Origin: Vibrio spartinae | GTDB lineage: Bacteria > Pseudomonadota > Gammaproteobacteria > Enterobacterales > Vibrionaceae | DNA length: 64,000 nt | Direction: 5' to 3' | Assembly: GCF_024347135.1 (NCBI RefSeq) | Contig: NZ_AP024908.1 | Span: 1,116,001 to 1,180,000, forward strand | Shown: positions 12,837 to 56,727 of the stretch, one piece after another | Position numbering within the stretch: the stretch's first letter is position 1 | Layout of the letters: every line of letters starts with the position of its first letter | Notes under the pieces: generated by a model | Database searches by the model: none | Told to the model about the DNA's origin: nothing | The model's input: the letters and a program-made list of their open reading frames with translations, nothing else | Translations under genes and position numbers: made by a program

Positions 12837-12916
12837 ATTATTCACATAAAGTATCATTCATATGAAACACTATTTGCATAAAGCATTATTCACATAAAAC
12901 ATTATTCACATGAAAC
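12837..12916. repeat. Five-copy 16-bp tandem repeat abutting the nadD-like stop codon
   Basis: Five consecutive 16-base units start at 12837, 12853, 12869, 12885 and 12901; the last two are ATTATTCACATAAAAC and ATTATTCACATGAAAC, the others differ at one to five positions, and a more degenerate copy precedes them at 12821. The array ends one base before the stop codon of the minus-strand adenylyltransferase gene, so it forms the start of its 3' untranslated region. No dyad symmetry strong enough for a terminator. Confidence 0.85.
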
Positions 12917-12917
12917 A

Positions 12918-13433
12918 TTAGTGATAGAGCGATAGTGAATGGATCAATTGAGCAACAGACGGTGTCGTTAATGTATCGATCGTCTTGCCTTGCTGAAGTC
13001 CTTGGCGGATGTCCGTGCTGCGAACGGGCACTTTTTCCGGACAGGCCATGACATTAAATTGCTTGAGGATATCTTTCGCTCGAAAAAAACGGGCGAATTG
13101 AAACAAATTATCCGGGCCCATCACAAACGTCAGTTCATCCTGCGGATAAATGTCCTGTAATGCGGTCAATACCGCATAAGTGGTAATGTGCTTGCCGGGA
13201 AGATAAAGCTGCTCTTCAATTGCAGAGCGTTGAATATTATCACCGCCTAAATCGGATATCAGTGCATCAACCAAGCGACATCGTTGCTCGTAAGGGAGCA
13301 TCTTCTTTCCCCATGCATGAGCGAGACTCGGGACGAGTAAAATTTGATCAAAATGACTCAATGAATCAATCACACTTTTGTGACCCAAACTTGGTGGGTT
13401 AAAAGCGCTGCCAAATACAGCGATTTTCAACAT
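12918..13433 (-). CDS. Nicotinate/nicotinamide nucleotide adenylyltransferase-like protein
   Basis: 171 residues from ATG 13433; AGGAAGG lies just upstream, inside a longer reading frame that starts at 13451. The N-terminus IAVFGSAFNPPSLGHKSVID is the nucleotidyltransferase P-loop/HxGH class motif (here SLGH), and the C-terminus has the SSTDIRQ-like block as RSTDIRQGL. Family reaction: NMN or NaMN plus ATP to NAD or deamido-NAD. It is shorter than E. coli NadD and lies back to back with nadE, so it probably supplies NadE substrate or works in NAD salvage. It may be a second copy beside a main nadD elsewhere. The symbol is withheld because NadD and NadM-like specificity cannot be told apart by eye. 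Confidence 0.8.
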   Translation of the reverse strand: MLKIAVFGSAFNPPSLGHKSVIDSLSHFDQILLVPSLAHAWGKKMLPYEQRCRLVDALISDLGGDNIQRSAIEEQLYLPGKHITTYAVLTALQDIYPQDELTFVMGPDNLFQFARFFRAKDILKQFNVMACPEKVPVRSTDIRQGLQQGKTIDTLTTPSVAQLIHSLSLYH

Positions 13434-13500
13434 ATCCTTCCTTTCTGGCAATTATCCGGTTTTCTAATTCAACGAAATAGGTATGATACTAAAAAGTTGT

Positions 13501-13566
13501 TATATACCCAAGTGACCTCAAGATACGGGATTGCGCGTATCTCCCGATCACGGTGACTTGAGCTTC
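13501..13566. repeat. Vibrio-type intergenic repeat (TATACCCAAGT family)
   Basis: TATATACCCAAGTGACCTC at 13501 opens an imperfect inverted repeat closing with GGTGACTTGAG near 13560, with GATACGGG and CCCGATCA in the arms. Elements starting TATACCCAAGT are dispersed in Vibrio genomes. A half copy in opposite orientation lies at 49172-49189 and a weaker match, ACCCAAGTAACC, at 22296. Confidence 0.55.
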
Positions 13567-13570
13567 ATAC

Positions 13571-13604
13571 TATCAGTTTATTCTTGTTATCAGTTTATTC
13601 TTGT
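13571..13604. repeat. Perfect 17-bp tandem duplication in the nadE leader
   Basis: TATCAGTTTATTCTTGT occurs twice without mismatch at 13571-13587 and 13588-13604. It ends 18 bases before the nadE start, immediately before the Shine-Dalgarno AAGGAA (13609-13614). Confidence 0.9.
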
Positions 13605-13622
13605 ACGAAAAGGAATCTCAAA

Positions 13623-14453
13623 ATGGAACAGCTTATTCGCGAGGAAATGCGTGTCCAACCCACTATCAACCCAGAATATGAAATTCAGCGTCGTATTGAC
13701 TTTATCAAACGCAAATTGACTGAATCCGGCTGTAAATCTCTGGTGCTCGGTATCAGCGGTGGCATTGACTCGGCCACTTGTGGTCGTCTGGCACAGTTGG
13801 CGGTTAATCAGCTCAATGAGGCGCATCCAGACACCCCGTATCAATTCATCGCGGTCAGATTGCCCTATGGTGAGCAAAAAGATGAAGATGAAGCGCAACT
13901 CTCTATCACCTTTATTGAGCCGAGCCATGCTGTTTCTGTGAATATTAAAGCGGGCGTTGACGGCCTTCACGCTGCGTCTCACCAAGCACTGGCAGGAACC
14001 GGATTACTCCCAGAAGACCATGCACAACTGGATTTCGTGAAAGGCAACGTCAAAGCTCGTGCCCGCATGATTGCCCAATACGAAATTGCGGGTTATGTGC
14101 GTGGCCTTGTGCTCGGCACCGACCACTCCGCAGAAAATATTACTGGTTTTTATACCAAGTTTGGTGATGGTGCATGTGACCTCGCCCCATTGTTCGGATT
14201 AAATAAACGTCAGGTTCGTCAGGTTGCTGCAACACTGGGTGCACCGGATGTACTGGTCAATAAAGTTCCGACGGCTGATTTGGAAGAACTGGCACCGCAA
14301 AAAGCGGATGAAGCAGCGCTGAATCTGACCTACGATCAGATTGATGATTTTCTGGAAGGAAAACCGGTTCCGCAGGGCGTCATTGATCGATTAGTCGCAA
14401 TTTATCAGGCCACTCAGCATAAACGTCAGCCAATTCCGACAATTTACGACTAA
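13623..14453 (+). CDS. nadE: Ammonia-dependent NAD synthetase
   Basis: 276 residues from ATG 13623, which has AAGGAA nine bases upstream; the same length and alignment start as E. coli NadE. Catalyses deamido-NAD + NH3 + ATP to NAD. The ATP pyrophosphatase P-loop is [13 protein letters not shown] (residues ~41-53), and the later blocks [26 protein letters not shown] and [10 protein letters not shown] are the substrate and ATP-binding segments. There is no glutaminase domain. It stands alone with its own leader, back to back with the adenylyltransferase gene. Identification is firm. Confidence 0.97.
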
Positions 14454-14468
14454 TTTTCCCACCTAAAT

Positions 14469-14506
14469 GTTGTGGGAGATCAATCAACGGTATGATCCCC
14501 CACAAC
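14469..14506 (+). terminator. Stem-loop after nadE
   Basis: GTTGTGGGAGATC and GATCCCCCACAAC form a long stem with a 12-base loop, 15 bases after the nadE stop. No T-run follows, so it may be a weak or Rho-assisted terminator or an mRNA-stabilising hairpin. Confidence 0.5.
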
Positions 14507-14695
14507 CTATTAACACTCCCATCCAGTAAACAACACATCATATTTGCATCGCAGTCACGTTTTTATTCCATAATGTGAGTTCTCTCCGATCGCGTAACAC
14601 TTTTAAAAAAACGACGAGTGAACATGATTATCGTCAATATTTTTTTCACCATATCGATGATGATGAAGTAACGAATTGTTATAGGAGTTTACAAT

Positions 14696-16024
14696 ATGTT
14701 GTATATGGAGTTTTTTTTCCTATTATTGATGCTTTACATTGGCTCTCGATACGGTGGTATCGGCTTGGGCGTGGTGTCTGGGATCGGTTTGGTTATCGAA
14801 GTATTTATCTTCAAAATGCCTCCGACTTCCCCGCCCATCAATGTCATGCTCATCATTTTGGCCGTGGTCACCTGTGCATCCATTCTTGAAGCCGCTGGTG
14901 GATTGAAGTACATGTTACAGGTCGCTGAACGCCTGCTACGGAAAAATCCCAAACGCGTTACCCTCATCGCACCGTTTGTCACCTATACCATGACTTTTTT
15001 GCTGGGTACCGGCCATGCGGTCTATTCCATTATGCCAATCATTGGTGATGTCGCACTGAAAAATGGGATTCGCCCAGAACGCCCGATGGCTGCCGCTTCT
15101 GTGGCTTCGCAAGTAGCGATTACAGCGTCTCCGATTTCAGCGGCTGTGGTTTATTATCTGGCTCAGTTAGTGAATGTTCAGGCTAATATCACACTCCTTT
15201 CTATTCTGATGGTCACTGTACCAGCCACACTTTGCGGTACACTCGCGATGTCGTTGTACAGTCTGAAACGAGGAAAAGAACTGCAAGATGACCCAGAGTA
15301 TCAGGCTCGTCTGAAAGATCCCGTTTGGCAAGAAGAGATCCGAAATACAACCGCAACAACGCTGAATGAAACCCTACCGGCAAAAGCAAGAAACTCTGTT
15401 TTACTCTTTATTAGCTCCATTCTCTGTATTGTCTTGATTGCGATGGTGCCGGAAATCAGAACTATCAGCGAAGGGGCGAAACCCATCAGTATGGCCGTTG
15501 TAATCCAGATGATGATGCTCTGCTTTGGCGGGATTATTCTGCTGGTCACCCGCACAAATCCGAAAAATGTCCCTGATGGCGTCGTCTTTAAATCTGGGAT
15601 GGTTGCCGCCATTGCAATCTTTGGGATTGCCTGGATGTCAGATACTTATTTCCAATATGCGATGCCTCAGTTCAAGTCTGGGATTGTTGAAATGGTTCAG
15701 TTATATCCTTGGACCTTCGCGCTGGCGCTCTTCGTTGTTTCTGTCGTGGTCAACTCTCAAGCCGCAACCGCTCGGATGATGCTGCCGGTCGGGCTGGCTT
15801 TGGGCCTGAACCCTGCATTGTTGATCGGCCTGATGCCTGCCGTTTATGGTTATTTCTTTATTCCGAACTATCCATCGGATATCGCCACCGTCAACTTTGA
15901 TGTCTCCGGTACGACGAAAATAGGAAAATGGTACTTTAATCACTCGTTTATGGCGGTCGGTCTCATTGCCGTTGTGACGGGCTGTATTGTCGGTTATCTG
16001 CTGGCTCAGGTGGTGATTGGCTAA
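14696..16024 (+). CDS. DcuA/DcuB-family anaerobic C4-dicarboxylate carrier
   Basis: 442 residues, very hydrophobic with about ten to twelve membrane segments. Characteristic blocks align with E. coli DcuA/DcuB: GGIGLGVVSGIGLVI, LRKNPKRVTLIAPFVTYTMTFLLGTGHAVYSIMPII, RPERPMAAASVASQVAITASPIS, FKSGMVAAIAIFGIAWMSDT, and NYPSDIATVNFDVSGTTKIGKW near the C-terminus. Members exchange fumarate, malate or aspartate for succinate during fumarate respiration, in the inner membrane. The start ATG at 14696 has AGGAG 12 bases upstream. DcuA and DcuB cannot be distinguished by eye, so no symbol is given. In V. cholerae a Dcu gene is likewise close to nadE. Confidence 0.92.
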   Translation: MLYMEFFFLLLMLYIGSRYGGIGLGVVSGIGLVIEVFIFKMPPTSPPINVMLIILAVVTCASILEAAGGLKYMLQVAERLLRKNPKRVTLIAPFVTYTMTFLLGTGHAVYSIMPIIGDVALKNGIRPERPMAAASVASQVAITASPISAAVVYYLAQLVNVQANITLLSILMVTVPATLCGTLAMSLYSLKRGKELQDDPEYQARLKDPVWQEEIRNTTATTLNETLPAKARNSVLLFISSILCIVLIAMVPEIRTISEGAKPISMAVVIQMMMLCFGGIILLVTRTNPKNVPDGVVFKSGMVAAIAIFGIAWMSDTYFQYAMPQFKSGIVEMVQLYPWTFALALFVVSVVVNSQAATARMMLPVGLALGLNPALLIGLMPAVYGYFFIPNYPSDIATVNFDVSGTTKIGKWYFNHSFMAVGLIAVVTGCIVGYLLAQVVIG

Positions 16025-16049
16025 ACTTTTACACACTCATCACGCAACA

Positions 16050-16075
16050 AGCCCCTGAATATCAGGGGCTTTTTC
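16050..16075 (+). terminator. Rho-independent terminator of the Dcu gene
   Basis: AGCCCCTGA-TAT-TCAGGGGCT type stem followed by TTTTTC, 26 bases after the stop codon. Confidence 0.9.
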
Positions 16076-16147
16076 GTGATAACGCTGAACTGCCAATCAC
16101 CTTGAATGATGAGTGAAATCACATGACCCCATTATTTCTCATCCCAC

Positions 16148-16195
16148 CTATTTTTTATCTAAACTATTTTTCATCTAAGCTATTTTTCATCTAAC
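16148..16195. repeat. Three-copy 16-bp tandem repeat spanning the carbonic anhydrase stop codon
   Basis: Units CTATTTTTTATCTAAA (16148), CTATTTTTCATCTAAG (16164) and CTATTTTTCATCTAAC (16180). The third unit contains the last four codons and the TAG stop of the minus-strand carbonic anhydrase; the other two are copies of this end in the 3' untranslated region. Each copy therefore carries its own TAG. Confidence 0.85.
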
Positions 16196-16893
16196 ACTAC
16201 GCGCGCATTGCGTGCCTGAACGGGGCGATTGTTGTGCCCCATGACAGAAGCCAGTACATTCTCCTGCTTGGTCGAGAGCGTTTTCGTCTGTTTCATCACA
16301 AACCAACGTACCCCTTCACTACACGGTGGCGTGGTGAGCGAACCATTGAAACGATAATATTTCTGCGTTGGCGGCAGTAAATCTTTCACAGGGAAAGAAA
16401 CCGGCACTGCGTCGCCTTTTCCCGGTAATTTCTGTGTCAACAGCGTCAACTCCTGATTCGCGCCCCCGATATCAAACATCACGGCAATAACAGCCAGATT
16501 GCCGTCACTGTCTTGATGAACAAAGTGAGCTTCCAAAGGATATTGGTGATTCTTAATCAAATTTTCGGAAGGGGTATGAAAATGAAATTGCTTTAGTTCA
16601 AAAAGCTTGCCATCAACGGTCAGCGTATTGTTACCGGTGATGGTTGCCTGTAACGTATGACCATTGTTGGTCAGGGTCGTCACTTGCCCTTGGTAATCAA
16701 TCGCCAAAGGCTTCAGTTCGGATGTGACTGTCTCCGTCAGATTAATCGGACTCTGGTTTCTCCCGGTCTCACAAACCTTGGAGACATGCCCCCAGTGTTT
16801 CGGACCATGTTCACCAATATATCCCCATTCTGAAGCCTGAGTCATGGTGGAGAATAAAGCGCCTACTGATATTGCCAATATAATTTTTTTCAT
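16180..16893 (-). CDS. cah: Periplasmic alpha-class carbonic anhydrase
   Basis: 237 residues from ATG 16893 (GGAAAG four bases upstream; the frame is open 27 codons further but without a better start). MKKIILAISVGALFSTMTQA is a Sec signal peptide. The mature part shows WGYIGEHGPKHWG, NQSPINL, the zinc ligands in QFHFHTPSEN and LEAHFVHQ, and SLTTPPCSEGVRWFV, all typical of bacterial alpha-CA. It converts CO2 and bicarbonate in the periplasm. Single-gene unit. The final codons are part of a tandem repeat, so length variation between strains could be expected there. Confidence 0.95.
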   Translation of the reverse strand: MKKIILAISVGALFSTMTQASEWGYIGEHGPKHWGHVSKVCETGRNQSPINLTETVTSELKPLAIDYQGQVTTLTNNGHTLQATITGNNTLTVDGKLFELKQFHFHTPSENLIKNHQYPLEAHFVHQDSDGNLAVIAVMFDIGGANQELTLLTQKLPGKGDAVPVSFPVKDLLPPTQKYYRFNGSLTTPPCSEGVRWFVMKQTKTLSTKQENVLASVMGHNNRPVQARNARVVLDEK

Positions 16894-17009
16894 TGTCTTT
16901 CCATGTCGTGATATCAAATACGATTGCGATACAACGGATATGTGTTGTGTTGTCTTATTTTTATTTATAATCAAAGACTAAGATGAAGATACCTTGTCGG
17001 TGTTTGAGT

Positions 17010-17357
17010 CTATCTCACCAAACTCCGGTACTCAATAACGACTTGATTGCCATCCACATAAACCGAATCAATATCACCATCGATAATCACTCGATTGACT
17101 AGTTTGACTTGCTGTTGCCCTTCCCGTTGCTGTTTGATCAGGCTGGGCATGAACAGATAGGGATCGACATGGAGATATCGACAGAAAGATTGTACGAATT
17201 GCTGCGTCAGTGGCTCACGCCCCCGCAAAATGTTGGACAGTTGGATTTGGGTCAGTCCCAACTGCTTAGCCACTTCCATCTGTGTCAGATGCATTCTCGC
17301 TTTTTGCGACATCCAAACATGATAAAGTGCGTCAAGATCATCCGATGTATATGCCAT
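17010..17357 (-). CDS. Small XRE/Cro-type DNA-binding regulator
   Basis: 115 residues from ATG 17357, with AGAGGAAAT upstream. Residues ~20-70 form a helix-turn-helix of the XRE type: MTQ-like MHLTQMEVAKQLGLTQIQLSNILRGREPLTQQFVQSFCRYLHV. The C-terminal ~40 residues are beta-rich (VNRVIIDGDIDSVYVDGNQVVIEYRSL) and may mediate dimerisation or ligand sensing. It is not a HigA partner, as no toxin gene is adjacent. A 17-base repeat array rich in GATAnnTATC dyads starts 43 bases upstream, which suggests autoregulation (inference). Confidence 0.8.
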   Translation of the reverse strand: MAYTSDDLDALYHVWMSQKARMHLTQMEVAKQLGLTQIQLSNILRGREPLTQQFVQSFCRYLHVDPYLFMPSLIKQQREGQQQVKLVNRVIIDGDIDSVYVDGNQVVIEYRSLVR

Positions 17358-17400
17358 AAAGGGATTTCCTCTAAGAATGTTGTCAACCAAACCGACAGTT

Positions 17401-17488
17401 ATCAACAATGGATAGTTATCAACAACGGATAGCTATCAACAACGGATAGTTATCGACAACGGACGGCGATCAACAACAACTGATAGCG
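17401..17488. repeat. 17-bp tandem array with GATAnnTATC dyads upstream of the XRE gene
   Basis: Units of 17 bases at 17401 (ATCAACAATGGATAGTT), 17418, 17435 and 17452, followed by a degraded 20-base unit at 17469. Unit junctions create GATAGTTATC, GATAGCTATC (perfect palindrome) and GATAGTTATC at 17411, 17428 and 17445. The array begins 43 bases before the start codon of the minus-strand XRE gene, so it occupies its promoter region. Confidence 0.85.
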
Positions 17489-17558
17489 ATAAATCCCGAC
17501 AATATGACAGATGTGTATGAGTCATGTGTCAACCAATCGTCATGATTGATTGATGACA

Positions 17559-18416
17559 CTACTCCTGAGAAGGAGCCGTCAGCAAACTGTCAAACGTCTT
17601 ATTGCCGTGCAGTCCTTCAAAGTCTGATTCTTCAGCAATGAACTCGCGCAGTGAAGGGCTGAGATCAACGGCGAGCTGTAGATCGATAATCGCCTGTTCT
17701 TCTGCGCCCAAACACGCGTAGGCACAAGCGCGTTGATACAACGCCGGGCCGTTGGTTTCATCGAGCTCAAGCACGCGGTTACATAAGCTCATTGCCCAGT
17801 GATATTCTTTCATTTCCATCACAGCGTCAGCTTTATAGGTCAGTGCTTCTAAATCTCCCGGACGAATTTTCAGAATTTCATCATAAACTTGCACTCGTTG
17901 TTCTGGTGTTTGCACACTCTGTGCTCTGAGCCACAAGTTGTGAATCTCATTGATAATCTCAATCTCGCGGTTATTGTCAGTGATGATCCGTGTTTTACGC
18001 TTCAGATCGCGCTCCAAGGCCAGAAATTTTTTCTCATAATCTTGCGCAATTTTATTTAAGCGTTTATCGGCCAGCTCACGCGTGTTGTTTTTCACCTCTT
18101 TCAATGAATGCCAGCCAAATAAAGCGATCAATGACGCGGCAGCAGCGATAATGTAAAAGAAATAAGTAACCGTAACATTGGCATAATTCATTGATTTATC
18201 GGCAACGCTCAATTCCCGATCCGTTATCTGGATGGTCAGACGGCGCTCCAGATCTTGTTGATCTTGTCGTAGTGATTTCAGCTCATCAAGAATATAGCGC
18301 TCGATAAGCGGACGCTCCAAGATATCAGTTTGCGAGTATTTCTGTTCCGGTTCTGCAACGGCAGTTCTCAGAAAAAGAGACAGTATAATTCCAACCATCA
18401 GTATAATTTTTAACAC
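17559..18416 (-). CDS. TPR-repeat inner-membrane protein
   Basis: 285 residues. An N-terminal signal peptide or anchor (MLKIILMVGIILSLFLRTAVA), a periplasmic helical stretch rich in charged residues (~25-80), one clear membrane span (~83-102, VTYFFYIIAAAASLIALFGW), a coiled coil (~105-150), and a C-terminal region with about three TPR-like helical repeats (~165-275: YDEILKIRPGDLEALTYKADAVMEM, AMSLCNRVLELDETNGPALYQRACAY, AIIDLQLAVDLSPSL). Such proteins scaffold other proteins; no function can be assigned. Monocistronic. Confidence 0.75.
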   Translation of the reverse strand: MLKIILMVGIILSLFLRTAVAEPEQKYSQTDILERPLIERYILDELKSLRQDQQDLERRLTIQITDRELSVADKSMNYANVTVTYFFYIIAAAASLIALFGWHSLKEVKNNTRELADKRLNKIAQDYEKKFLALERDLKRKTRIITDNNREIEIINEIHNLWLRAQSVQTPEQRVQVYDEILKIRPGDLEALTYKADAVMEMKEYHWAMSLCNRVLELDETNGPALYQRACAYACLGAEEQAIIDLQLAVDLSPSLREFIAEESDFEGLHGNKTFDSLLTAPSQE

Positions 18417-18525
18417 GGCAGACCCCTTATTTTTAAGACCACTTATCTTTCACACGGCAAGCGTCATCCACATTGTCTAATGAAATACAGCACGAAACAA
18501 TCCACAGTAGATAAAAAAACAATTA

Positions 18526-18539
18526 ATTTGTGCACAAAT
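18526..18539. promoter_or_regulatory. 14-bp perfect palindrome upstream of proV
   Basis: ATTTGTGCACAAAT lies ~170 bases before the proV start in a strongly AT-rich leader. Vibrio proVWX operons are known to be osmoregulated and repressed by the MarR-type CosR; whether this is such an operator is not shown by the sequence. Confidence 0.35.
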
Positions 18540-18707
18540 AATTCCACAAAAACATGAAAAAAAAGGAGAAATAAATAATCATTTAAAATCAACATGTTAT
18601 ATAGATAAAAAAACATCAAGAAACAGAAGCGCTTGATTTATATCCAATTAATGCTTAGAGTTCATTACATATAGTTGTTAATTTTAAACAATATGGGTCA
18701 TGATGAC

Positions 18708-19895
18708 ATGGAAGCTATCTTAGAAGTAAAACAGCTTTACAAAATATTCGGAGAGTCAGTTGACACCGCCTTTCCCTTAATGGAAAAGGGGCTGGATAAA
18801 GACCAAATTTTTGAAAAAACAGGTCTCACTGTCGGTGTCAAAAATGTATCGCTCTCGATTCAGGAAGGCGAAATTTTCGTAATTATGGGACTGTCCGGCT
18901 CCGGAAAATCAACACTAGTCCGTTTGTTAAATCGTTTAATCGAACCAACCCAAGGCAGTGTCCTGCTCAAAGGGCGGGATATTGCACGCATCTCCGCGCC
19001 AGATCTCCGCGAAGTTCGGCGTAAACAAATTTCAATGGTTTTTCAGAATTTTGCACTGATGCCACACATGACAGTGATCGACAATACTGCGTTTGGCCTA
19101 GAGCTGGCGGGGATTGATAAAGCAACCCGCTATCAACGCGCCAAAGATGCACTGTCACGAGTCGGACTGGATGCTTACGGGGACTCTTTCCCTGATGAAC
19201 TTTCCGGAGGCATGAAACAACGGGTCGGACTTGCCCGGGCATTAACCAATGACCCGGATATCCTGTTAATGGATGAGGCATTTTCAGCACTCGATCCGCT
19301 CATTCGTACTGAAATGCAGGATGAGCTGATCCGCTTACAGAACGATGATAAACGGACCATTGTTTTTATTTCCCATGATCTGGATGAAGCCATGCGTATC
19401 GGTGATCGAATTGCCATTATGCAAGATGGTGAATTCATTCAAGTCGGCACCCCGGACGATATTCTGCACAATCCGGCCAATGATTATGTGAGTTCCTTCT
19501 TCCGCGGCGTGAATGTCGCCAACATTTTCACGGCAAAAGATATTGCCCGGAGAAAAATCGCCACGCTCCTGAAAAAACATGACAATGATGGACCAGCCGC
19601 TGCACTACAACTGTTACTGGATAATGACAGGGAGTTTGGCATTGTCGTTGATCGGGGCTATAGCTATGAAGGCGTTGTCTCCATCGATTCACTCAAAGAA
19701 GCTCAAAAACAAAAACGCTCACTCTACAGTGCACTCCTGCAAGACACGATTCATGTTCATGCCGACACTCCCATCAGCGAATTAATCGGTCAAGTTGCGA
19801 CCGTCCCTTACGCGCTGCCTGTCATCGATGACAATAACCGCTATCTGGGTGTTATCAGTAAATCCCGATTACTTCAGACTTTAGACAGAGAATAA
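18708..19895 (+). CDS. proV: Glycine betaine/proline ABC transporter ATP-binding subunit
   Basis: 395 residues from ATG 18708, which gives an N-terminus ([16 protein letters not shown]) exactly colinear with E. coli ProV; an ATG at 18693 and a TTG at 18675 are alternatives. Contains the QILEKTG-like leader typical of ProV ([17 protein letters not shown]), Walker [10 protein letters not shown] (~63), signature [15 protein letters not shown] (~165), Walker [14 protein letters not shown] (~185), and two CBS domains from ~275 to the end that in homologues gate the transporter by ionic strength. First gene of proVWX; the stop is two bases before proW. Confidence 0.96.
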
Positions 19896-19897
19896 TT

Positions 19898-20917
19898 ATG
19901 GCAATGGAATCCTCACAAAACGTTGACCCTTGGGCGACAAGCACCACAGCGAACAGTGACTGGTTAAATGCCAGCACACCACCACCAGAGACATTTCACT
20001 GGTTACACCCATTTAAAGACGCAGTCATACCCTTTGATCAATGGGTAGAAACGGCACTCAACTGGTTAGTAGAGCACGGACGGCCGCTATTTCAGGCGAT
20101 CCGTGTTCCAATCGATTTAATCCTCAGCTCATTCCAGACCGCATTAGTCGCCACACCGGCCCCCGTCATGTTAGTGATACTGTTTCTGCTGGCTTGGCAA
20201 ATGGCGGGGCTGCGCATGGGAATCATTTCACTGGTTTCATTAATTGTGATCGGTCTGGTCGGTGCGTGGAATGGAGCAATGGTGACATTGGCCTTGGTCA
20301 TGACCTCGGTATTTTTCTGCTTACTGATGGGGCTGCCGCTCGGCATCTGGCTAGCTCGGAATCAGACGGCCGCGAAAATAATCCGGCCGGTGCTTGATGC
20401 AATGCAGACAACCCCTGCGTTTGTCTATCTCGTCCCCATTGTGATGCTGTTCGGGATTGGCAACGTCCCCGGGGTCGTCGTGACCATTATTTTTGCACTG
20501 CCGCCCATCGTTCGATTGACCATCCTCGGTATCCAACAAGTCCCCGAAGAGCTGGTTGAAGCAGGTCATGCTTTCGGTGCAAGCCCGAAACAGATGCTGT
20601 ATCGCATTCAGCTTCCTTTAGCGATGCCATCGATCATGGCTGGCGTAAACCAGACACTGATGCTATCACTTTCTATGGTGGTCATCGCTTCAATGATTGC
20701 CGTGGGCGGATTGGGACAAACCGTATTACGCGGTATTGGTCGGCTCGATATGGGGATGGCAGCCGTTGGGGGACTTGGGATTGTGATTCTCGCCATTCTG
20801 TTGGATCGAATTACGCAAACCATCGGCATCGCAACCCGGGATAATAAAAGTCGTTGGTATCACGCAGGTCCCGCCAGTTTCATTTGGCGACTGGTTGCAA
20901 AAGCAAAAACCAATTAA
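19898..20917 (+). CDS. proW: Glycine betaine/proline ABC transporter permease
   Basis: 339 residues with an extended hydrophilic N-terminus (~1-90) containing DPWA and [20 protein letters not shown], then six or more membrane segments. The EAA loop reads [33 protein letters not shown], as in binding-protein-dependent permeases. Long N-terminal tails are typical of ProW. It assembles with two ProV subunits in the inner membrane. The stop codon sits inside a short 8-base tandem repeat (AACCAATT, 20908-20923). Confidence 0.96.
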
Positions 20918-21021
20918 CCAATTAACCATGGTTACCAAATAACAAAGCCATGACGTACGAGGAAATACCGCCAGTCAGTCACGAACTCAACCATCAGTCT
21001 CGTTTCTGATTGGCTGACCAT

Positions 21022-36937: not shown

Positions 36938-36963
36938 GGGAGATACCTTTGCATCATTTCGTG

Positions 36964-37014
36964 ATCTACATGTTTTCATGATCAACATGTTTTCGTAATC
37001 AACAGTGTATGATA
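36964..37014. repeat. 17-bp tandem repeat upstream of the phospho-sugar mutase
   Basis: ATCTACATGTTTTCATG (36964) and ATCAACATGTTTTCGTA (36981) followed by a degraded third unit ATCAACAGTGTATGATA (36998). Begins 26 bases upstream of the mutase start codon, in its leader or promoter. Confidence 0.7.
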
Positions 37015-48456: not shown

Positions 48457-49051
48457 TAACGATTTCCTCATCATGTCTATTGGTTCTTTGAGAAAGACCT
48501 TGCCAGCGTTTTGCAAACGGAGCATCTAGGCCAAACTGGTCCAGCACTCTCGTCACAATATGCTGTTTAATATCCTCGACAGACTCAGGTCGGTTGTACC
48601 ACGCTGGCATGGGGGGCACCATCGAGACGCCCAATTTGGCAAGCGCGAGCATATTTTCTAAGTGGATCGGATTGAGCGGCATTTCGCGAGGAACAAGCAC
48701 CAATCGACGTTGCTCTTTTAAGATCACATCAGCAGCCCGACCAATTAAACCCTCAGCATATCCGGATCGGATACCAGCCAAAGTCTTCATACTACAAGGC
48801 ATAATGATCATGCCGTCTGTTCTGAATGAACCGGATGAGATCGCAGCCGCCTGATCCGCGGAATGATAAGTCACATCGGCCAAGAGACTGACTTCTCTGG
48901 CGGTCATCGACGTTTCGAGTTCAATCGTCGTTTTTGCCCAACGCGACATCACAAAATGTGTTTCTACATCCGGGATTTGCTGTAAAGCCTGCAACAGCGT
49001 GACAGCCAAAGGGGCCCCGGTAGCACCTGTCATTCCAACAATTAGCCTCAT
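48446..49051 (-). CDS. Flavin prenyltransferase, UbiX/VdcB/Pad1 type (subunit B)
   Basis: 201 residues. RLIVGMTGATGAPLAVTLLQAL is the FMN-binding start, followed by YHSADQAAAISSGSFRTDGMIIMPCSMKTLAGIRSGYAEGLIGRAADVILKEQRRLVLVPREMPLNPIHLENM and VPPMPAWYNRP, all typical of UbiX. It makes the prenyl-FMN cofactor for subunit C. Operon head; it overlaps subunit C by 11 bases. Being paired with C and D and under a MarR gene, it is the catabolic paralogue, not ubiquinone UbiX. Confidence 0.93.
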   Translation of the reverse strand: MRLIVGMTGATGAPLAVTLLQALQQIPDVETHFVMSRWAKTTIELETSMTAREVSLLADVTYHSADQAAAISSGSFRTDGMIIMPCSMKTLAGIRSGYAEGLIGRAADVILKEQRRLVLVPREMPLNPIHLENMLALAKLGVSMVPPMPAWYNRPESVEDIKQHIVTRVLDQFGLDAPFAKRWQGLSQRTNRHDEEIVNDF

Positions 49052-49075
49052 ACACCCTCAAAATTGTGATTGAAA

Positions 49076-49099
49076 ATATTGTTCGCATACGAACAATAT
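49076..49099. promoter_or_regulatory. Perfect inverted repeat, probable MarR operator
   Basis: ATATTGTTCG-N4-CGAACAATAT, ten matched bases per arm, 24 bases before the subunit B start and ~185 before the divergent MarR gene. Size and symmetry fit a MarR-family dimer site. Confidence 0.8.
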
Positions 49100-49283
49100 G
49101 GTTAAACTAAATCTTATATACACAAAAAGCAATATTAAAATTTCAAATCAGTGATACCTCAGTTCCCTTGCAGCGACTTGGGTATATAATTAACAAAATA
49201 CGTAATGAATGGATATTTTGCATGACGATATTATGCATAACATTGTGCTTCTCTTTCATTAAGACCAAGGATAACCTGAACAG

Positions 49284-49700
49284 ATGACTCAACCATTAGA
49301 TTCAGCCGTATTTCACTTAATGCGAAAACTATTTCAAGAACATACGTCCTATTGGCAAGAAGCATTACCCCATGTGACGAAACCACAGTTTTCAGTTTTA
49401 CATGCGATTGCTCAATCTCCGGGAATTGAACAAGTTGATCTTGTGGAGGCAGCCATTACCACCAAAGCAACATTAGCAGAACTACTGGGTAGAATGGAGA
49501 AACGGGGGCTGATTAACCGACAGCATAGTACGCAAGATAAAAGACGCCGTTTTGTCTATTTAACTGCGGAAGGCGAAAAGCTTTACCATGACTCAATGGT
49601 CGTCGTTCAGTCACTCGATATGCGGTTTCTGAGTCGTATCCCAGCAGCGGATCATCAACAGTTGTTACGTATTCTGAATACATTATCTGTCAGCCGTTAA
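49284..49700 (+). CDS. MarR-family regulator of the decarboxylase operon
   Basis: 138 residues. Winged helix: LPHVTKPQFSVLHAIAQSPGIEQVDLVEAAITTKATLAELLGRMEKRGLINRQHSTQDKRRRFVYLTAEGEKL, with the DxRxR-like wing as DKRRRFVYLT. Members of this family that sit beside aromatic-acid genes bind the aromatic compound and derepress. It is divergent from the B-C-D operon with a perfect palindrome between them, so it is the likely repressor and phenolic-acid sensor. Confidence 0.92.
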   Translation: MTQPLDSAVFHLMRKLFQEHTSYWQEALPHVTKPQFSVLHAIAQSPGIEQVDLVEAAITTKATLAELLGRMEKRGLINRQHSTQDKRRRFVYLTAEGEKLYHDSMVVVQSLDMRFLSRIPAADHQQLLRILNTLSVSR

Positions 49701-49717
49701 GCACAGCGCCAAACCGT

Positions 49718-49748
49718 CAAAAGCACCGACAACTTGTCAGTGCTTTTG
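49718..49748 (+). terminator. Terminator after the marR gene
   Basis: CAAAAGCAC-GACAA-TTGTC-GTGCTTTTG type stem with T-run TTTTG; 18 bases after the stop. Confidence 0.85.
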
Positions 49749-49947
49749 CATTATCGCTTCTTGTCGGAAGCATCAGCCGCCGGCAACCCACTGATGCTTG
49801 GTTTTGATACTGGAAATCAGATAGGACAACAGGAATAGGAAATTTTCGCGGCGAATATCGCGCTAACGCATCAAAAGATAAAATGAAAAATCGTAGTCTT
49901 AACGGTTAATAATTTTTATAACAATCAACCAATCCATCGCTTTTCAG

Positions 49948-50343
49948 TCAGGCTTGCAAACGGTCAATCAGTTGATGAACCAAGGTATCCACCATGTCAG
50001 GAATCTGCGTAAGATGCTCCGGCTTCGCCTGATCGATATGAATCCCACAACTGACCGAAACAACACAATTGAGGGCAGCAGCCATCACCTGAGCCGTACG
50101 ATGCGCAAGCAGATCTTCTTTGTGGCCTAATACACACAGCACCGACGTCGATGCACTCACCTTCGATGCATCTTGCAAGCTTGCCCGCGGTTGCGCCAGT
50201 GCCACAGCACCGACATGTGCTGCATCACCACCATGGATGGTCACGAGCAAATCCCGACCCACGCTAACAGCAACTAAATCAATCACAATCCCGTCAGCTT
50301 CCAGTTTTAACTGCACAATGTGATCGGATGGATATGGCGTCAT
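49948..50343 (-). CDS. LpdD-like protein (prenylated-flavin-linked)
   Basis: 131 residues, cytosolic alpha/beta. The blocks VAVSVGRDLLVTIHGGDAAHVGAVALAQPR, SVLCVLGHKEDLLAHRTAQVMAAALNCVVSVSCGIHID resemble the LpdD-like family, described as prenylated-flavin chaperone-like, found near UbiD/UbiX-type decarboxylases. The position next to the B-C-D operon and its regulator, though on a separate transcript, supports this. I am fairly sure of the family by pattern, not of the function. Confidence 0.6.
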   Translation of the reverse strand: MTPYPSDHIVQLKLEADGIVIDLVAVSVGRDLLVTIHGGDAAHVGAVALAQPRASLQDASKVSASTSVLCVLGHKEDLLAHRTAQVMAAALNCVVSVSCGIHIDQAKPEHLTQIPDMVDTLVHQLIDRLQA

Positions 50344-50538
50344 ATATGTTGTCTCCCTATTTTCAATGATGACTTTCGTGTGGGCTTAGGGGATTATACC
50401 TGAGGGGATGAAAAATAAACCACAATTGAGGAGAGTGTGTTTGTTTTTGTTGTGAAAATGTTACCCTGACAATCAAGATACACGCCTGAGCAACTCAGAT
50501 TGCTTCAGTCAACTCAATCAGTGCACGATGGAGGCATA

Positions 50539-50817
50539 GTGATTCATACAACAAAGACAAAGCTGGACATCAATATCGGTGGCGAACATCTGGTCATCCA
50601 GCAACGTTATGAGGCATTGAGTGCCTTCAATGATCTGCTCATTGCGATCTGGTTTCTGATCGGTAGCTTCTTTTTCTTAAACGATTCGTTGGTTGAAAGC
50701 GGGACTTGGCTATTTATCGCCGGTAGTGCTCAGCTCCTGATCAAACCATTGATCAAACTAACTAGCCTGGTTCATCTTTATCGCATTCAAAACCGCTACA
50801 ATGATGCGCAACAGTGA
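50539..50817 (+). CDS. YrhK-domain membrane protein
   Basis: 92 residues from GTG 50539, which has GGAGG four bases upstream; the frame is open to 50500 without a better start. The YrhK pattern is LVIQQRYEALSAFNDLLIAIWFLIGSFFFLNDSLVESGTWLFIAGSAQLLIKPLIKLTSLVHL, with two membrane helices. Function unknown. Possibly linked to redox or membrane stress; no evidence here. Confidence 0.85.
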   Translation: MIHTTKTKLDINIGGEHLVIQQRYEALSAFNDLLIAIWFLIGSFFFLNDSLVESGTWLFIAGSAQLLIKPLIKLTSLVHLYRIQNRYNDAQQ

Positions 50818-50838
50818 TGAGCGGCAACGATAAAATGA

Positions 50839-50872
50839 CATCGGCTCCCACATATTCACGTGAGAGCCGATG
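50839..50872. terminator. Convergent terminator YrhK / lipoprotein
   Basis: CATCGGCTC pairs with GAGCCGATG around a 16-base loop that itself holds a CACxTATTxxCGTG half-stem. Confidence 0.75.
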
Positions 50873-50904
50873 ACTCAGGACCAATAATCAGAAAATGACG
50901 AGCG

Positions 50905-51222
50905 TTATTTCTCTTGATGCTTATCATTGCCTGCATCTGAAGAATCTCCGATCACACCCTGACTCATTTCAGGCGCTTCTCCCATCATTTCTTGATCAGT
51001 TTTCGGTGCAGTTGGCTCATATGAACCCTGACCATCATTATCCATCGTCTGAACACCGTCCATTGTCGCTGGATCGCCCGCATCCATGGTTGCAGAATCT
51101 GTTTGCTCGCTGCTGGACGTGGTTTTTTCAGTGGTTGCATTATCATCGTTACATGCCGTTAGGCCGAAAGCAATTGCGGTTGTTAGTAGCATCATGGCAA
51201 TCGGGTTTGATAGTTTAGACAT
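50905..51222 (-). CDS. Small acidic lipoprotein
   Basis: 105 residues. Signal peptide with lipobox LTAC at residue ~24 (AIAFGLTACNDDNAT). The mature part is disordered, rich in Thr, Asp, Met and Gln, with repeated TMD/ATMD motifs (DSATMDAGDPATMDGVQTMD). Asn-Asp after the lipid Cys: Asp at +3, not +2, so outer-membrane sorting is expected. No family recognised. Monocistronic. Confidence 0.75.
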   Translation of the reverse strand: MSKLSNPIAMMLLTTAIAFGLTACNDDNATTEKTTSSSEQTDSATMDAGDPATMDGVQTMDNDGQGSYEPTAPKTDQEMMGEAPEMSQGVIGDSSDAGNDKHQEK

Positions 51223-51465
51223 ACTTATCTCCTGTTTTTCGAACGGCTGATGCGTTCACACATTAAATCAACTGGAGCCAGTGTAGTGAATTACGCAGAG
51301 AAGATTTCAAATTTCAGGTCAAGAGTTCGTACTCATTGTGTAAGAAATCAAACATTTCCCTGACCTGAAAAATAAACTGTGTTGCAAACAACAGATCAAG
51401 GCATCGAAAAACAGCTATATTGATTATTCGTGAATCCCATCATAAAAAATCAAATAGGTAGAATC

Positions 51466-54294
51466 ATGCAATGTCAGCCCTCGGAAGTTTCTGCACCATA
51501 CCAGAATCTCATCTCCCGCTTATCCTCTCGGCTTGCGCCTGAATGTATTATCACGCAGCCGGAGCAACGGTTAGCCTACGGCACCGATGCCAGTTTTTAT
51601 CGTTTAATCCCACAAGTCGTACTCCGGTTGAAAAATGTCGATGAGGTCATATTTACTCTACGCATTTGCTATGAACTCGATATTCATCTGACATTCCGGG
51701 CTGCGGGCACCAGCCTGTCCGGACAGGCTGTTTCAGATTCAGTGCTGGTGACCCTGACCGATGACTGGCGCAACTATCAGATTTCAGAGCAGGGTCATCA
51801 GATCAGACTGCAACCCGGCGTGATCGGAGCGGACGCGAACCGCTATCTGGCCCCCTACCAACGAAAAATCGGGCCGGATCCGGCATCGATCAATGCATGT
51901 AAGATTGGAGGAATCGCTGCCAATAATTCCAGTGGTATGTGCTGTGGCACCGCGCAGAATTCGTATCAGACCATTGCAGACATTCACATTATTTTTGCTG
52001 ACGGAAATGAACTCAATACGGCTGATCCCGAGAGCGTTCAAACCTTCAAACAACAAAATCCAGCGTTGATCAGCGGGATTCAGACGCTCTGCGAACAAAC
52101 ACGGCAGAACCACCAACTGACCGATTTGATTCGGCATAAATACCGCCTGAAAAATACCACCGGTTACGCACTCAATGCGCTGATTGATTATACCGATCCG
52201 ATTGACGTGATTAAGCATTTGATGATCGGCTCCGAGGGAACGCTGGGATTCATTGCCGAAATCACCTACCACACCGTGGCAGAACATCCGTTTAAAGCTT
52301 CAGCGCTGCTGGTTTTTCCCGACATCGAGCAAGCCAGTCAGGCCGTCACAACACTCAAAACAACCCCAGTGGCTGCTGTGGAAATGATGGATGGCCGCTC
52401 ACTCCGGGCAATCGCTGATAAGCCGGGTATGCCGGATTTCATCGCCACGCTGGATGAACATGCGACCGCATTACTTATTGAATCTCATAGTCAGAGTGAA
52501 GCGCAACTCACGATGCAGTGTGATCAGGTCATGCAGCAGCTCGCGACTTATTCGATTCTGGAATCTGTCCCATTTACCACCGATCAACAGACGGTCACCA
52601 CACTGTGGGGAATTCGTAAAGGGCTTTTCCCGGCAGTTGGTGCAGTGCGTGAAACCGGCACCACGGTGATTATTGAAGATGTGGCCTTTCCGATTGAACA
52701 TCTGGCCGGTGGTGTGCGCGATTTGCAGACGTTATTTAACAAACATCACTACCATGAAGCGATTATTTTCGGTCATGCACTGGAAGGTAATTTGCATTTT
52801 GTCTTTACACAAGGCTTCGACCAACCGGAAGAAATTGCACGGTATAGCGCGTTTATGGATGATGTCGCGCAACTGGTCGCGGTGAAATACGGTGGCTCAC
52901 TGAAAGCAGAACATGGCACCGGGAGAAACATGGCGCCTTATGTTGAGCTGGAGTGGGGAAAATCGGGTTACGCACTGATGCAACAGATAAAGAAATTATT
53001 TGACCCCACAGACAGGCTCAACCCCGGAGTGATTATCAATGCGGATCCGCAGGCACATGTCCAACATCTCAAACCCATGCCACCAGCCAACCCATTGGTT
53101 GATCGCTGTATTGAATGCGGTTTTTGCGAGGCAGTCTGCCCGTCCCGAACACTGACACTCTCCCCGCGGCAACGAATTGTGCTGTACCGGGAATTACAGC
53201 ATCGCCGTACGCTTGAAGACAGCACTGACGTTCAGGCGTTAGAACAAGCCTTTGAATATCAGGGAATCGATACGTGTGCCGCAACAGGCTTGTGTGCGAC
53301 ACGTTGTCCGGTCGGCATTAATACCGGTGATTTAGTGAAACAACTGAGAACCGAGAAATACCATCGCTATGATTCTATTGCCCGGTGGACCGCGAACCAT
53401 TTCACCACGACGACACAACTTGCCAAAACAGGATTAAAACTGAATGCATCGGCAACACGTCTGCTTGGTGCGAAACGAATGCAGCACTGGAATCAACGCT
53501 TACGTCACCATATGCAAATACCGAAGTGGTTGCCAGAAATCCCGACGCCAAATCGTGATGCTATCGCCAAGCACCGTGACAGTCCGGCTAAAAATAAGGT
53601 TGTCTACTTTCCGTCCTGTGCCAGCCGAACCATGGGAACAACGCCACAAGGCGAGGATCAACGCGCGCTCACTGAAGTCACACGTCGGTTGCTGAATAAA
53701 GCCGGATTTGAAATCATCATCCCCAACCATTTAAACGAACAGTGCTGCGGGATGCCTTATGACAGTAAAGGGATGACAGCACACGCCCAACACAAAGCGC
53801 ATCAGTTAGAGCAGGCTTTACTCGATGCCTCTGAACAGGGTCGCTATCCGGTTCTGATGGACACCAGCCCGTGTGTACAGCGACTGAAAACCGAATTGCG
53901 TTCAACGATACCACTCTACGAACCGGCCGAGTTTGTCAGTCGCTACCTGTTGGAATTGCTGACCATTACCCCAACCGAAGAAACGATTATGCTTCACATT
54001 ACCTGTAGTGCCCGAAAAATGGGATTGGAAGATGTGATGTTAAAATTGGCTCAGGCCTGTGCCCGTGAGGTCATCGTCCCGGAACATATTCAGTGTTGTG
54101 GCTGGGCCGGAGACAAAGGCTTCACCACACCAGAATTGAATCAGGCCGCATTACAACCGTTGAAAAGTCAGATACCGCCGGGTTGTAAACGCGGCTTCAG
54201 CCATAGCCTGACCTGTGAAATCGGCCTTTCACACCACAGCGGTATTCCTTATCAATCCATTCTGTATCTGGTGGATGAAGTGTCCGGGGGATAA
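51466..54294 (+). CDS. FAD/Fe-S D-lactate-type dehydrogenase (Dld-II/YdiJ-like)
   Basis: 942 residues from ATG 51466 (AGGTAG upstream; a GTG at 51430 would add 12). N-terminal FAD-binding PCMH domain (TFRAAGTSLSGQAVSD, CKIGGIAANNSSGMCCGT, IGSEGTLGFIAEITY), a FAD-oxidase C domain (~300-530, EAIIFGHALEGNLHFVF, KAEHGTGRNMAP), two 4Fe-4S motifs (CIECGFCEAVCPSR and CAATGLCATRCPVG, ~545-620) and two CCG domains (EQCCGMPYDSKG; QCCGWAGDKGF). It oxidises D-lactate or another 2-hydroxyacid and passes electrons to quinone. No lactate permease or lldD next to it. Long for the family because of the complete CCG pair. Confidence 0.92.
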   Translation: MQCQPSEVSAPYQNLISRLSSRLAPECIITQPEQRLAYGTDASFYRLIPQVVLRLKNVDEVIFTLRICYELDIHLTFRAAGTSLSGQAVSDSVLVTLTDDWRNYQISEQGHQIRLQPGVIGADANRYLAPYQRKIGPDPASINACKIGGIAANNSSGMCCGTAQNSYQTIADIHIIFADGNELNTADPESVQTFKQQNPALISGIQTLCEQTRQNHQLTDLIRHKYRLKNTTGYALNALIDYTDPIDVIKHLMIGSEGTLGFIAEITYHTVAEHPFKASALLVFPDIEQASQAVTTLKTTPVAAVEMMDGRSLRAIADKPGMPDFIATLDEHATALLIESHSQSEAQLTMQCDQVMQQLATYSILESVPFTTDQQTVTTLWGIRKGLFPAVGAVRETGTTVIIEDVAFPIEHLAGGVRDLQTLFNKHHYHEAIIFGHALEGNLHFVFTQGFDQPEEIARYSAFMDDVAQLVAVKYGGSLKAEHGTGRNMAPYVELEWGKSGYALMQQIKKLFDPTDRLNPGVIINADPQAHVQHLKPMPPANPLVDRCIECGFCEAVCPSRTLTLSPRQRIVLYRELQHRRTLEDSTDVQALEQAFEYQGIDTCAATGLCATRCPVGINTGDLVKQLRTEKYHRYDSIARWTANHFTTTTQLAKTGLKLNASATRLLGAKRMQHWNQRLRHHMQIPKWLPEIPTPNRDAIAKHRDSPAKNKVVYFPSCASRTMGTTPQGEDQRALTEVTRRLLNKAGFEIIIPNHLNEQCCGMPYDSKGMTAHAQHKAHQLEQALLDASEQGRYPVLMDTSPCVQRLKTELRSTIPLYEPAEFVSRYLLELLTITPTEETIMLHITCSARKMGLEDVMLKLAQACAREVIVPEHIQCCGWAGDKGFTTPELNQAALQPLKSQIPPGCKRGFSHSLTCEIGLSHHSGIPYQSILYLVDEVSGG

Positions 54295-54322
54295 AGTCTC
54301 CGCCAAGATCTGCGCCTGACAA

Positions 54323-54359
54323 ATAACAGCCCGATTTACAATGTAAATCGGGCTGTTAT
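54323..54359. terminator. Convergent terminator dehydrogenase / glgB
   Basis: ATAACAGCCCGATTTAC pairs perfectly with GTAAATCGGGCTGTTAT; 17-base stem, 3-base loop. No T-run. Confidence 0.7.
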
Positions 54360-54379
54360 GCTGTCGTGTTCTACAAACA

Positions 54380-56572
54380 CTAAGATTCTAATTTATAATA
54401 GACCGTCGCCAATGGCGGAATCCGTAACAATAAAGAGTGCGTCAGTCCCTGACTCTCTACCGTTTCAGTTGTCGCAACACTGACCACCTTGTACCCACTA
54501 CCGCAATATTCCTGGTCATCTGAGTTCAACATCAGACGGTAGTTCCCCTGCACCGGCATTCCCAAACGGAAATCATCATGCGGGACTGGGGTAAAATTAC
54601 TGATAACCAGAATCCGCTCACCGGATTCACTGATGCGTTCATGGGCCAAAATACTGATCTCTGCGGCATCCCCGAGGCGCCACTCGAACCCTTCCGGCAC
54701 AGAATCACTCTCATATAATGCTTTTTCCTGACGATACAGGGCATTCAAATCCTGAGTCAGCTTCAGCACCCCCTGATGCCGTTCATATTCCAACAAGAAC
54801 CATTGAAGCTGGCTCTCATGTTGCCACTCTCCGGTTTGCCCGAATTCAGTCCCCATGAAGTTGAGCTTCTTACCCGGTTGACCATACATGTAACCGAGGT
54901 AAGCTCTGAGATTGGCGGTCTGTTGCCATTCGTCCCCCGGCATTTTGTCATGCAGAGACCGCTTACCGTAAACCACTTCATCGTGAGAAAGCGACAGAAT
55001 ATAGTTCTCACTGAATGCATACAACAGCGGGAATGTGACCACATTATGATGGTATTTACGGTGTACCGGGTCGTGCTGAATATACTCAAGACTATCGTGC
55101 ATCCAGCCCATATTCCATTTAAAACCGAACCCTAGCCCACCGAGAAATGTCGGCATTGAAACCCCGGGAAACGCGGTCGATTCTTCAGCAATGGTCATGG
55201 CATTGGGGAAATGTTTATACACTTCCTCATTCATCCATTTTAATGTCGCGATGGCATCATAATTCTCCCGTCCCCCGTCAACATTCGGGATCCATTGATC
55301 ATGACTGCGCGAATAATCGAGATAAAGCATGGAAGCGACGGCATCAACCCGAATGCCATCAATGTGGAATCGGTCAAACCAGTACAATGCGTTAGAAACC
55401 AGAAAACGGCGCACATGTTCACGTCCCATATCATAGATATAAGAGTTCCAGTCCTGATGCCAGCCACGACGTGGATCCGGGTCGTGATAGAGCGGTGTCC
55501 CGTCAAAATTATTCAGGCCATGTCCATCGGCTGGGAAGTGCGCCGGCACCCAATCCAATACCACACCGATATTCGCTTGATGACACTGATCGACAAAATA
55601 CTTGAAGTCATCGGGTGAACCATAACGGCTGGTCGGTGCAAACAAGCCGATTGGCTGGTAGCCCCACGACCCATAAAAAGGATGTTCGGCCACCGGCATC
55701 AGCTCAACATGGGTATATCCCATATCGGTCAGATAAGGCACCAACAGATCAGCCAGCTCCCGATAGTTAAGAAATTGCTCATCAGGACCAAGTTTCCAGG
55801 AACCGACATGCAATTCATAAAATGACAATGCTTCTTTGCGTTTTTCCGTGATTGGCCGGTTTTGCCAACCCTCATCCTGCCAGACATAACGCGCATGATC
55901 ATAAGTCACAGAAGACAATGACGGGAACTGTTCTGCATAAAAACCCCATGGATCGGCTTTATGAGGCAGCCCCTCACCATTCGGGCCTTTGAGCTCAAAT
56001 TTGTATTGTGTGCCTTCCGTCATTTCCGGGATAAAAATACCCCAGATCCCATAATCAAGTCGCTGCATCGGGTAACGACGTCCATCCCACTGGTTAAAGT
56101 TGCCGATCACAGAACAAGATGAAGCGTGTGGCGCATAGACTAAAAAGCGAACCCCCTCGATCTGCTTGCCGCCCCGCTCCAGCGTAACGAACTGCGCACC
56201 AAGATGTCGATACATGGCAATCGGGGTGTGTAAATGGTCGTATTCGGCATAGATTGCATGATACTGATATGGGTCATCAAGGATCTGCTCTCCCCCTTTC
56301 CAGCGCACCAACAAGCGGTAGTGGGTCAGGCGTAACCCCATGTCCGACTGAAGAATAAAACCGCCATTCTCTTCTGGCGACATTTCAATCGGGTCTTGTT
56401 CATCGAGTAACACGAAGACTTGGAGCGCTCCGGGCATCCATACGCGAAGAACCCCTTGCTCAGGAGAGATAAATGGCCCTAAAAAGGCAAATGGATCAGC
56501 AAATGAAGCCTGTGCCAGTTTCTGATAAGTCTGCTGCTTTTTTGTCAGCTTCTGTTTCTGAACGGTTTTCAA
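54380..56572 (-). CDS. glgB: 1,4-alpha-glucan branching enzyme
   Basis: 730 residues. N-terminal CBM48-type domain (~110-220, [18 protein letters not shown]), GH13 barrel with [43 protein letters not shown] (nucleophile Asp ~407), [13 protein letters not shown] (acid Glu ~462), [12 protein letters not shown], and a C-terminal beta domain. It introduces alpha-1,6 branches in glycogen. Last gene after malP and malQ, separated from malQ by 242 bases including a tandem repeat, so it may also have its own promoter. Confidence 0.97.
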
Positions 56573-56659
56573 TATCCTTACTCCTAGCCTAACGAACCTA
56601 TCTGTTTACCCATAAGCAGACCGATCCCCTATCTTGACGCGGTCAAATCTCCGGGTGCT

Positions 56660-56727
56660 ATCGATCTGTTAATAAAATCGGTCTGTTAATAAAATCGATC
56701 TGTCACTAAAACCGATCTGTTGATAAA
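56660..56727. repeat. Four-copy 17-bp tandem array between malQ and glgB
   Basis: ATCGATCTGTTAATAAA (56660), ATCGGTCTGTTAATAAA (56677), ATCGATCTGTCACTAAA (56694), ACCGATCTGTTGATAAA (56711): four units with one to three differences. Lies ~88 bases from each gene. Confidence 0.9.

Follow-up and report, generated by a model that had tools for sequence, protein, structure and literature searches.

We analysed a stretch of 64,000 nucleotides of Vibrio spartinae, hereafter the window (C2:1116001-1180000 of genome G000, 5.19 Mb in two contigs), which carries six short tandem arrays with units of 16 or 17 bp at gene borders. A sequence-only reading of this DNA had listed six such arrays, and Tandem Repeats Finder (TRF) recovered all of them within a few bases of where they had been placed. 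In window positions, the arrays and their neighbouring genes are as follows.

12836..12920: 16 bp unit, 5.3 copies, 73% matches, CATTATTCACATAAAA-like; on the 3' side of a cytidylyltransferase-like, nadD-like gene (12918-13433, minus strand), ending on its stop codon.
13571..13604: 17 bp unit, 2.0 copies, perfect; in the leader of nadE (NAD synthase, start 13623, plus strand).
16133..16199: 16 bp unit, 4.1 copies; at the 3' end of a carbonic anhydrase gene (16180-16893, minus strand), overlapping its stop codon, where that gene converges with a DcuA/DcuB-family transporter gene (14696-16024, plus strand).
17390..17477 (TRF: 17397-17463 and 17400-17477): 17 bp unit, 3.9-4.6 copies, with a 34 bp higher-order period; upstream of a helix-turn-helix regulator gene (17010-17357, minus strand).
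36957..37004: 17 bp unit, 2.8 copies; in the leader of a phosphoglucomutase/phosphomannomutase-family gene (start 36937, minus strand).
56660..56728: 17 bp unit, 4.1 copies; upstream of a glgB-type gene (54380-56572, minus strand) and downstream of a malQ-type gene (56815-59028, minus strand).

Four of the six arrays thus lie upstream of genes; the other two, 12836 and 16133, lie at 3' ends and extend to or into a stop codon. In three arrays (TRF intervals 12827-12918, 16133-16199 and 17390-17477) a doubled period of 32 or 34 bp outscored the single one, so expansion may sometimes proceed by two units. No tRNA genes or Rfam families were detected in the window at the thresholds of the tools.

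The window was set within an own-genome sample of 864 kb (17% of the genome: 40 stretches of 20 kb plus the window) and compared with 1.38 Mb from five sister genomes (G076, G077, G164, G142 and Vibrio ruber, G145). Further comparison sets were 11 other Vibrio genomes (460 kb), 79 named loci surrounding nadE (1.0 Mb) and two outgroup genomes (120 kb). When 227 genomes of the genus were ranked by nadE DNA, G076 (95% identity) and G077 (93%) came closest, followed by G164 and V. ruber (91%) and G142 (87%), all others standing at 75% or less; by protein, the NAD synthase of V. ruber is the closest named relative, with 98% identity (best of the 80 loci kept). The V. ruber locus L022 was excluded from the named-loci set, so that 79 of 80 were used. 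Arrays were counted at a TRF score of at least 60 and a period of at most 40 bp, longer periods being left out, and genes were called with a simple open reading frame caller scored on hexamers, which serves as a proxy for annotation.

The V. spartinae sample contained 60 arrays, 51 of them intergenic by these calls, which corresponds to 31.7 per 100 kb of intergenic DNA; coding DNA held nine, or 1.3 per 100 kb, giving an intergenic/coding ratio of 24.7. Two of these nine are the window arrays 13571 and 36957, which lie in leaders over-extended by the proxy, because the nadE start at 13623 stands in a block conserved in the sisters, and because the long phosphoglucomutase-family frame crosses an array that differs by ~16-17 bp in G076 and G077. 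The genome-wide TRF scan (here on the 17% sample) and the comparison with shuffled intergenic sequence, both proposed in the sequence-only reading, agree on a real excess: at a score of at least 60, real intergenic segments contained 40 arrays, and order-2 Markov sequence of matching lengths averaged 0.2 over 20 runs, with no run exceeding 3; at a score of at least 40, the figures were 89 and 3.9.

The excess also holds against relatives. Intergenic density was 10.4 per 100 kb in the five sisters (own/sister ratio 3.06, p=1.8e-6) and 8.9 in other Vibrio (ratio 3.56, p=1.1e-7), and the closest sister, G076, was still exceeded by a ratio of 2.04 (p=0.019). By genome, G076 had 21 arrays (14 intergenic, 15.6 per 100 kb), G142 had 12 (8 intergenic, 9.8), G077 had 5 (2 intergenic, 4.6), and G164 and V. 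ruber had one each, both intergenic (4.4 and 7.4). The 11 other Vibrio genomes gave 9 arrays (6 intergenic, 8.1), the 79 named loci 21 (18 intergenic, 9.2), and the two outgroups one, intergenic (4.0). The initial 12.8 kb of V. ruber sequence compared, surrounding nadE, contained no array even at a TRF score of 40. Perfect duplications of at least 10 bp followed the same order, with 30 in 161 kb of intergenic DNA in V. spartinae, 16 in 251 kb in the sisters and 13 in 270 kb in other Vibrio.

Within V. spartinae itself, six arrays in 64 kb are ordinary (the rest of the sample predicts 4.3, P=0.27). Twelve of the 41 sampled stretches hold no array at all, and contig C1 shows a weak, roughly twofold skew, with 23 arrays in 53 kb of intergenic DNA at 1-3 Mb against 10 in 51 kb elsewhere on it (p=0.036).

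The arrays share a period range and no sequence. The 16-17 bp period proposed in the sequence-only reading holds for the six window arrays; genome-wide it widens to a broad mode at 14-18 bp, which accounts for 32 of 51 intergenic arrays in V. spartinae, 19 of 26 in the sisters and 7 of 24 in other Vibrio (V. spartinae plus sisters against other Vibrio, p=0.002). Detection does not explain why periods above 18 bp are scarce, since TRF recovered implanted arrays of 18-40 bp at least as readily as those of 16 bp, to within 3 points. That the unit sequences differ was borne out: among 39 units of 13-19 bp no 5-mer rose above chance (best z 2.7; null maximum median 3.0, 95% 4.2), so the arrays do not represent repeats of a single element or binding site. 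A dispersed repeat family (REP, ERIC, BIME or STRR) was rejected because no unit sequence is common to many sites, and a shared binding site, in the form of an iteron or DnaA-box cluster, because the units hold no common word. The word TTATTCACA, which we take to match the DnaA-box consensus, is present in three of the five units of array 12836; since the other five window arrays lack it, the match is probably a coincidence.

Placement relative to genes is strongly biased. Among the 50 intergenic arrays with a called gene on both sides, convergent gene pairs flank 19 (in 22 kb of DNA of this class), divergent pairs 12 (43 kb) and co-directional pairs 19 (81 kb), a 3.4-fold convergent enrichment (19 in 22 kb against 31 in 123 kb, p=7.6e-5). 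Array L015:19933, at a stretch edge with a gene on one side only, was left out of this count, and for several arrays the nearest called gene is at least 400 bp away, where the proxy may have missed one. The convergent bias fits survival where neither promoter nor leader is harmed; mutagenic converging transcription would fit it too. The claim that arrays sit at start or stop flanks and never inside a gene body held in the window and did not hold strictly elsewhere, the 9 arrays of 60 in proxy coding DNA being counted against it. One apparent case of an array inside an intact gene, the 16 bp array of five copies at L017:18999-19079, was rejected: the reading frames show that the response-regulator gene there is a decayed relic in V. 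spartinae, its middle part gone in V. spartinae, G076 and G077 and its frame open in V. ruber and G142.

Orthologous sites in the sisters provide the history of the arrays. These comparisons are between species; the genome scan showed no second strain of V. spartinae, near records perhaps having been left out. At the six window sites, own and sister sequence could be compared in 29 of 30 cases (V. ruber has no flank match at the glgB site, 56660), and as we read the alignments V. spartinae has more copies in 27. No copies of array 12836 were seen in any of the five sisters, absence being read from the right side and total length, as the left flank is unaligned there. Array 13571 has 2 copies in V. 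spartinae, 3 in G076, 2 in G077, 1 in G164 and V. ruber, and ~1 in G142; array 17390 has 4-5 units in V. spartinae against ~1-2 in the sisters; array 36957 has 3 (x2.8) in V. spartinae, 2 in G076 and G077, and 1 in G164, G142 and V. ruber; and array 56660 has 4 in V. spartinae, 2 in G076 and G077, and 1 in G164 and G142. At this last site the two copies of G076 (L141) came without a gain in length, the upstream bases looking as if overwritten by the downstream unit; to judge from the alignment, other sequence seems to have given way to the upstream copy, as in a template switch or conversion.

Eleven further V. spartinae arrays were compared with the sisters. L190:19094 has two copies in V. 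spartinae and one in all four sisters compared, and L017:18999 has five against one in the four of five sisters that aligned. Sisters also carry arrays of their own: at the gene border L017:16167-16237, G142 (L277) has a longer array of an unrelated unit; at L017:12080, G077 has a different 17 bp array and the region is longer in G076 as well; and in the reverse case G164 has a 17 bp array of 2.8 copies just upstream of the carbonic anhydrase gene, a site with one copy in V. spartinae, V. ruber, G076 and G077 and poorly aligned in G142. Differing units and sister-own arrays indicate that arrays arise independently in each lineage, sometimes at the same gene border. Sites at which a sister was unaligned (L190:18194 in G164 and G142; L017:18999 in G164) or partly aligned (L013:15206 in G164 and G145) were not counted; the reciprocal-site scan passed over window arrays and arrays mostly in proxy genes, and three of its 17 pairs were uninterpretable (L016:3492 of V. 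spartinae; L204:13163 and L217:15944 of G076). A ~50 bp stretch at L015:12410-12467 has matches at several positions in every one of the five sisters and may be a dispersed repeat or part of an RNA gene.

The junctions of two-copy duplications bear on how an array begins. V. spartinae and the sisters together yielded 39 perfect duplications of 12 to 40 bp outside proxy genes, 19 of them without a third copy, a test that leaves out exact extension beyond the unit. In these 19, extension at the junction was 0 bp in 9 cases, 1 in 6, 2 in 2, 3 in 1 and 6 in 1 (mean 1.0), and random breakpoints in the same DNA gave a mean of 0.78 with 54% zeros. Junction homology therefore shows no clear excess over random breakpoints in this set.

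Taken together, these results make the arrays look like the outcome of a mutation process and not a set of regulatory elements. We consider it probable that they are minisatellites born by mutation in the V. spartinae lineage, duplicated independently of homology, kept under weak selection and expanded by slippage. The common mechanism of short tandem duplication suggested in the sequence-only reading finds support in the excess over shuffles and relatives, the shared period without a motif, the lower copy numbers in the sisters and the independent arrays found there. In the first step, a single-copy stretch of up to ~20 bp (8 to 23 bp seen) would be duplicated in tandem without junction homology, a pattern shown, at the level of sequence, by the comparison of species. 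In the second, the pair would expand and contract during replication while point mutations made the copies diverge; the occurrence of 1, 2 and 3 copies of one unit across species and the 32/34 bp periods show part of this course, and slippage would be the expander. In the third, purifying selection would remove arrays from coding DNA and thin them where leaders and promoters matter, so that they survive between genes and above all between convergent ones; the densities are as observed, and selection is the presumed filter. The 14-18 bp mode could then reflect duplication falling off above ~18 bp combined with weak expansion of short units.

For the first step, our leading guess is a staggered break: opposed nicks up to ~18 bp apart, with the intervening duplex melting, would be filled in and rejoined without Ku. 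The more far-reaching proposal, that an active homology- and Ku-independent process tandemly duplicates up to ~20 bp of any sequence, with a physical ruler such as duplex melting between opposed nicks setting the upper limit, and so seeds minisatellites genome-wide faster than in the sisters, is one that we put forward tentatively and regard as more doubtful than probable.

Several observations weigh against this interpretation. The split between intergenic and coding DNA depends on proxy gene calls. Two-copy arrays below 14 bp are nearly invisible to TRF, so the low side of the period peak is partly a threshold effect; a threshold-free scan has only a modest mode, with 14 of 30 duplications (period at least 10) at 15-17 bp, and also has 12 at 8 bp, where ~2.5 would be expected by chance on our own estimate, made without simulation. 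Nineteen duplications are few for the junction test, whose scan began at 12 bp, and one of them, L182:7849, is really an 8 bp array read at 16 (mean 0.94 without it). Copy number in V. spartinae is not higher at 13571 than in G076 and G077, is about equal to G076 at L017:16167 and equal to G077 at L013:16256, and is 2 against 3 in G077 at L185:3888. Taken as a group, the sisters do not exceed other Vibrio in density (26 arrays in 251 kb and 24 in 270 kb, respectively; p=0.67), which places the rise mainly in the V. spartinae lineage. No candidate enzyme emerged: Ku had no match in any of the six genomes (V. spartinae and the five sisters; of 14 control genomes, the search gave a match in B. 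subtilis), and joining through Ku, as in fill-in by non-homologous end joining (NHEJ), was rejected on that count. Finally, PolA, a paralogue that we take to be of the Xni type (both including the 5' exonuclease domain) and MutS are present and open in all six.

The alternative of most weight, although we judge it unlikely, is that short direct repeats on the flanks seed the duplications (ABA to ABABA), as happens in FEN1-deficient yeast, making these ordinary minisatellites of the slippage or flap-ligation type; an unrecognised weakness in Okazaki-fragment repair or mismatch repair would then have raised the rate in this lineage. The raised rate would fit, 4 of the 19 two-copy cases have an extension of at least 2 bp, and homology used in older multi-copy arrays could be hidden. 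Yeast deficient in rad27/FEN1 is reported to form direct-repeat-mediated tandem insertions that expand into arrays, of a size similar to those here and in one case with a 16 bp unit between two genes (PMC5677150); unlike that system, our duplications have no clear excess of flanking direct repeats, the mean extension of 1.0 against 0.78 being not clearly above random. The flap-nuclease genes are also open here: the PolA and Xni-type 5' exonuclease domains and MutS are present in all six genomes with open reading frames, and loss of any of them was rejected as a matter of presence or absence.

It is distinctly improbable that the arrays are selected regulatory or structural elements that tune the length of a leader or 3' untranslated region (UTR), bind a nucleoid protein or end transcription. 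The strong intergenic placement, the upstream position of four of the six window arrays and the word in three units of array 12836 that we assume to resemble a DnaA box speak for such a role; against it, the units share no motif, orthologous sites vary in copy number and in places even in the unit itself, and arrays are densest in convergent intergenic DNA. The selection on leader or 3' UTR length offered in the sequence-only reading is thus unsupported, since most orthologous sites differ in copy number and the density peaks between genes that converge, a setting without a leader. Excised mobile elements, whose target-site duplications might have stayed behind, are a very improbable source: although perfect two-copy repeats without homology resemble empty target-site footprints, their lengths range from 12 to 23 bp in a scan that started at 12 bp, and arrays reach up to 7 copies. 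An assembly artefact, to which the higher density in one assembly might point, has hardly any probability: copies within most arrays differ (72-100% matches), most arrays are shorter than ~120 bp and so than usual reads, and at some of these sites related arrays with different copy numbers occur in the sisters.

Bacterial minisatellites, or variable-number tandem repeat (VNTR) loci, serve in multiple-locus VNTR analysis (MLVA) for typing. The V. spartinae arrays resemble them as tandem direct repeats within the unit range of ~10-60 bp, mostly intergenic, with copy numbers that differ between lineages (here at species level) and copies that diverge within arrays; unlike the usual case, they form a genome-wide class whose unit lengths peak at 14-18 bp and whose density is about three times that of relatives, and at many sites the sisters still show readable low-copy states. 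Among the papers that literature searches listed, none was found to describe such a pattern in Vibrio, judged by titles and abstract openings. Opposed nicks in mammals and plants produce small homology-independent tandem duplications by a route that is reported to need Ku and NHEJ (PMC8355091). The resulting pattern, which alone was compared, is similar in that no microhomology is needed at our junctions, and the route differs from the situation here in that no Ku was found in the six genomes.

The arrays belong to a known kind, bacterial minisatellites, and their rate, unit mode and readable low-copy states make them more interesting than usual. The birth of such loci can rarely be observed, since the ancestral single-copy state has usually disappeared; in this case, the sister species keep low-copy states, so that birth, growth and decay can be read site by site. 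Because the rate is raised relative to close sisters, the gene responsible can be searched for. Should the arrays indeed be born without homology, slippage between short repeats would fail to explain the first step in genomes in which no Ku was found.

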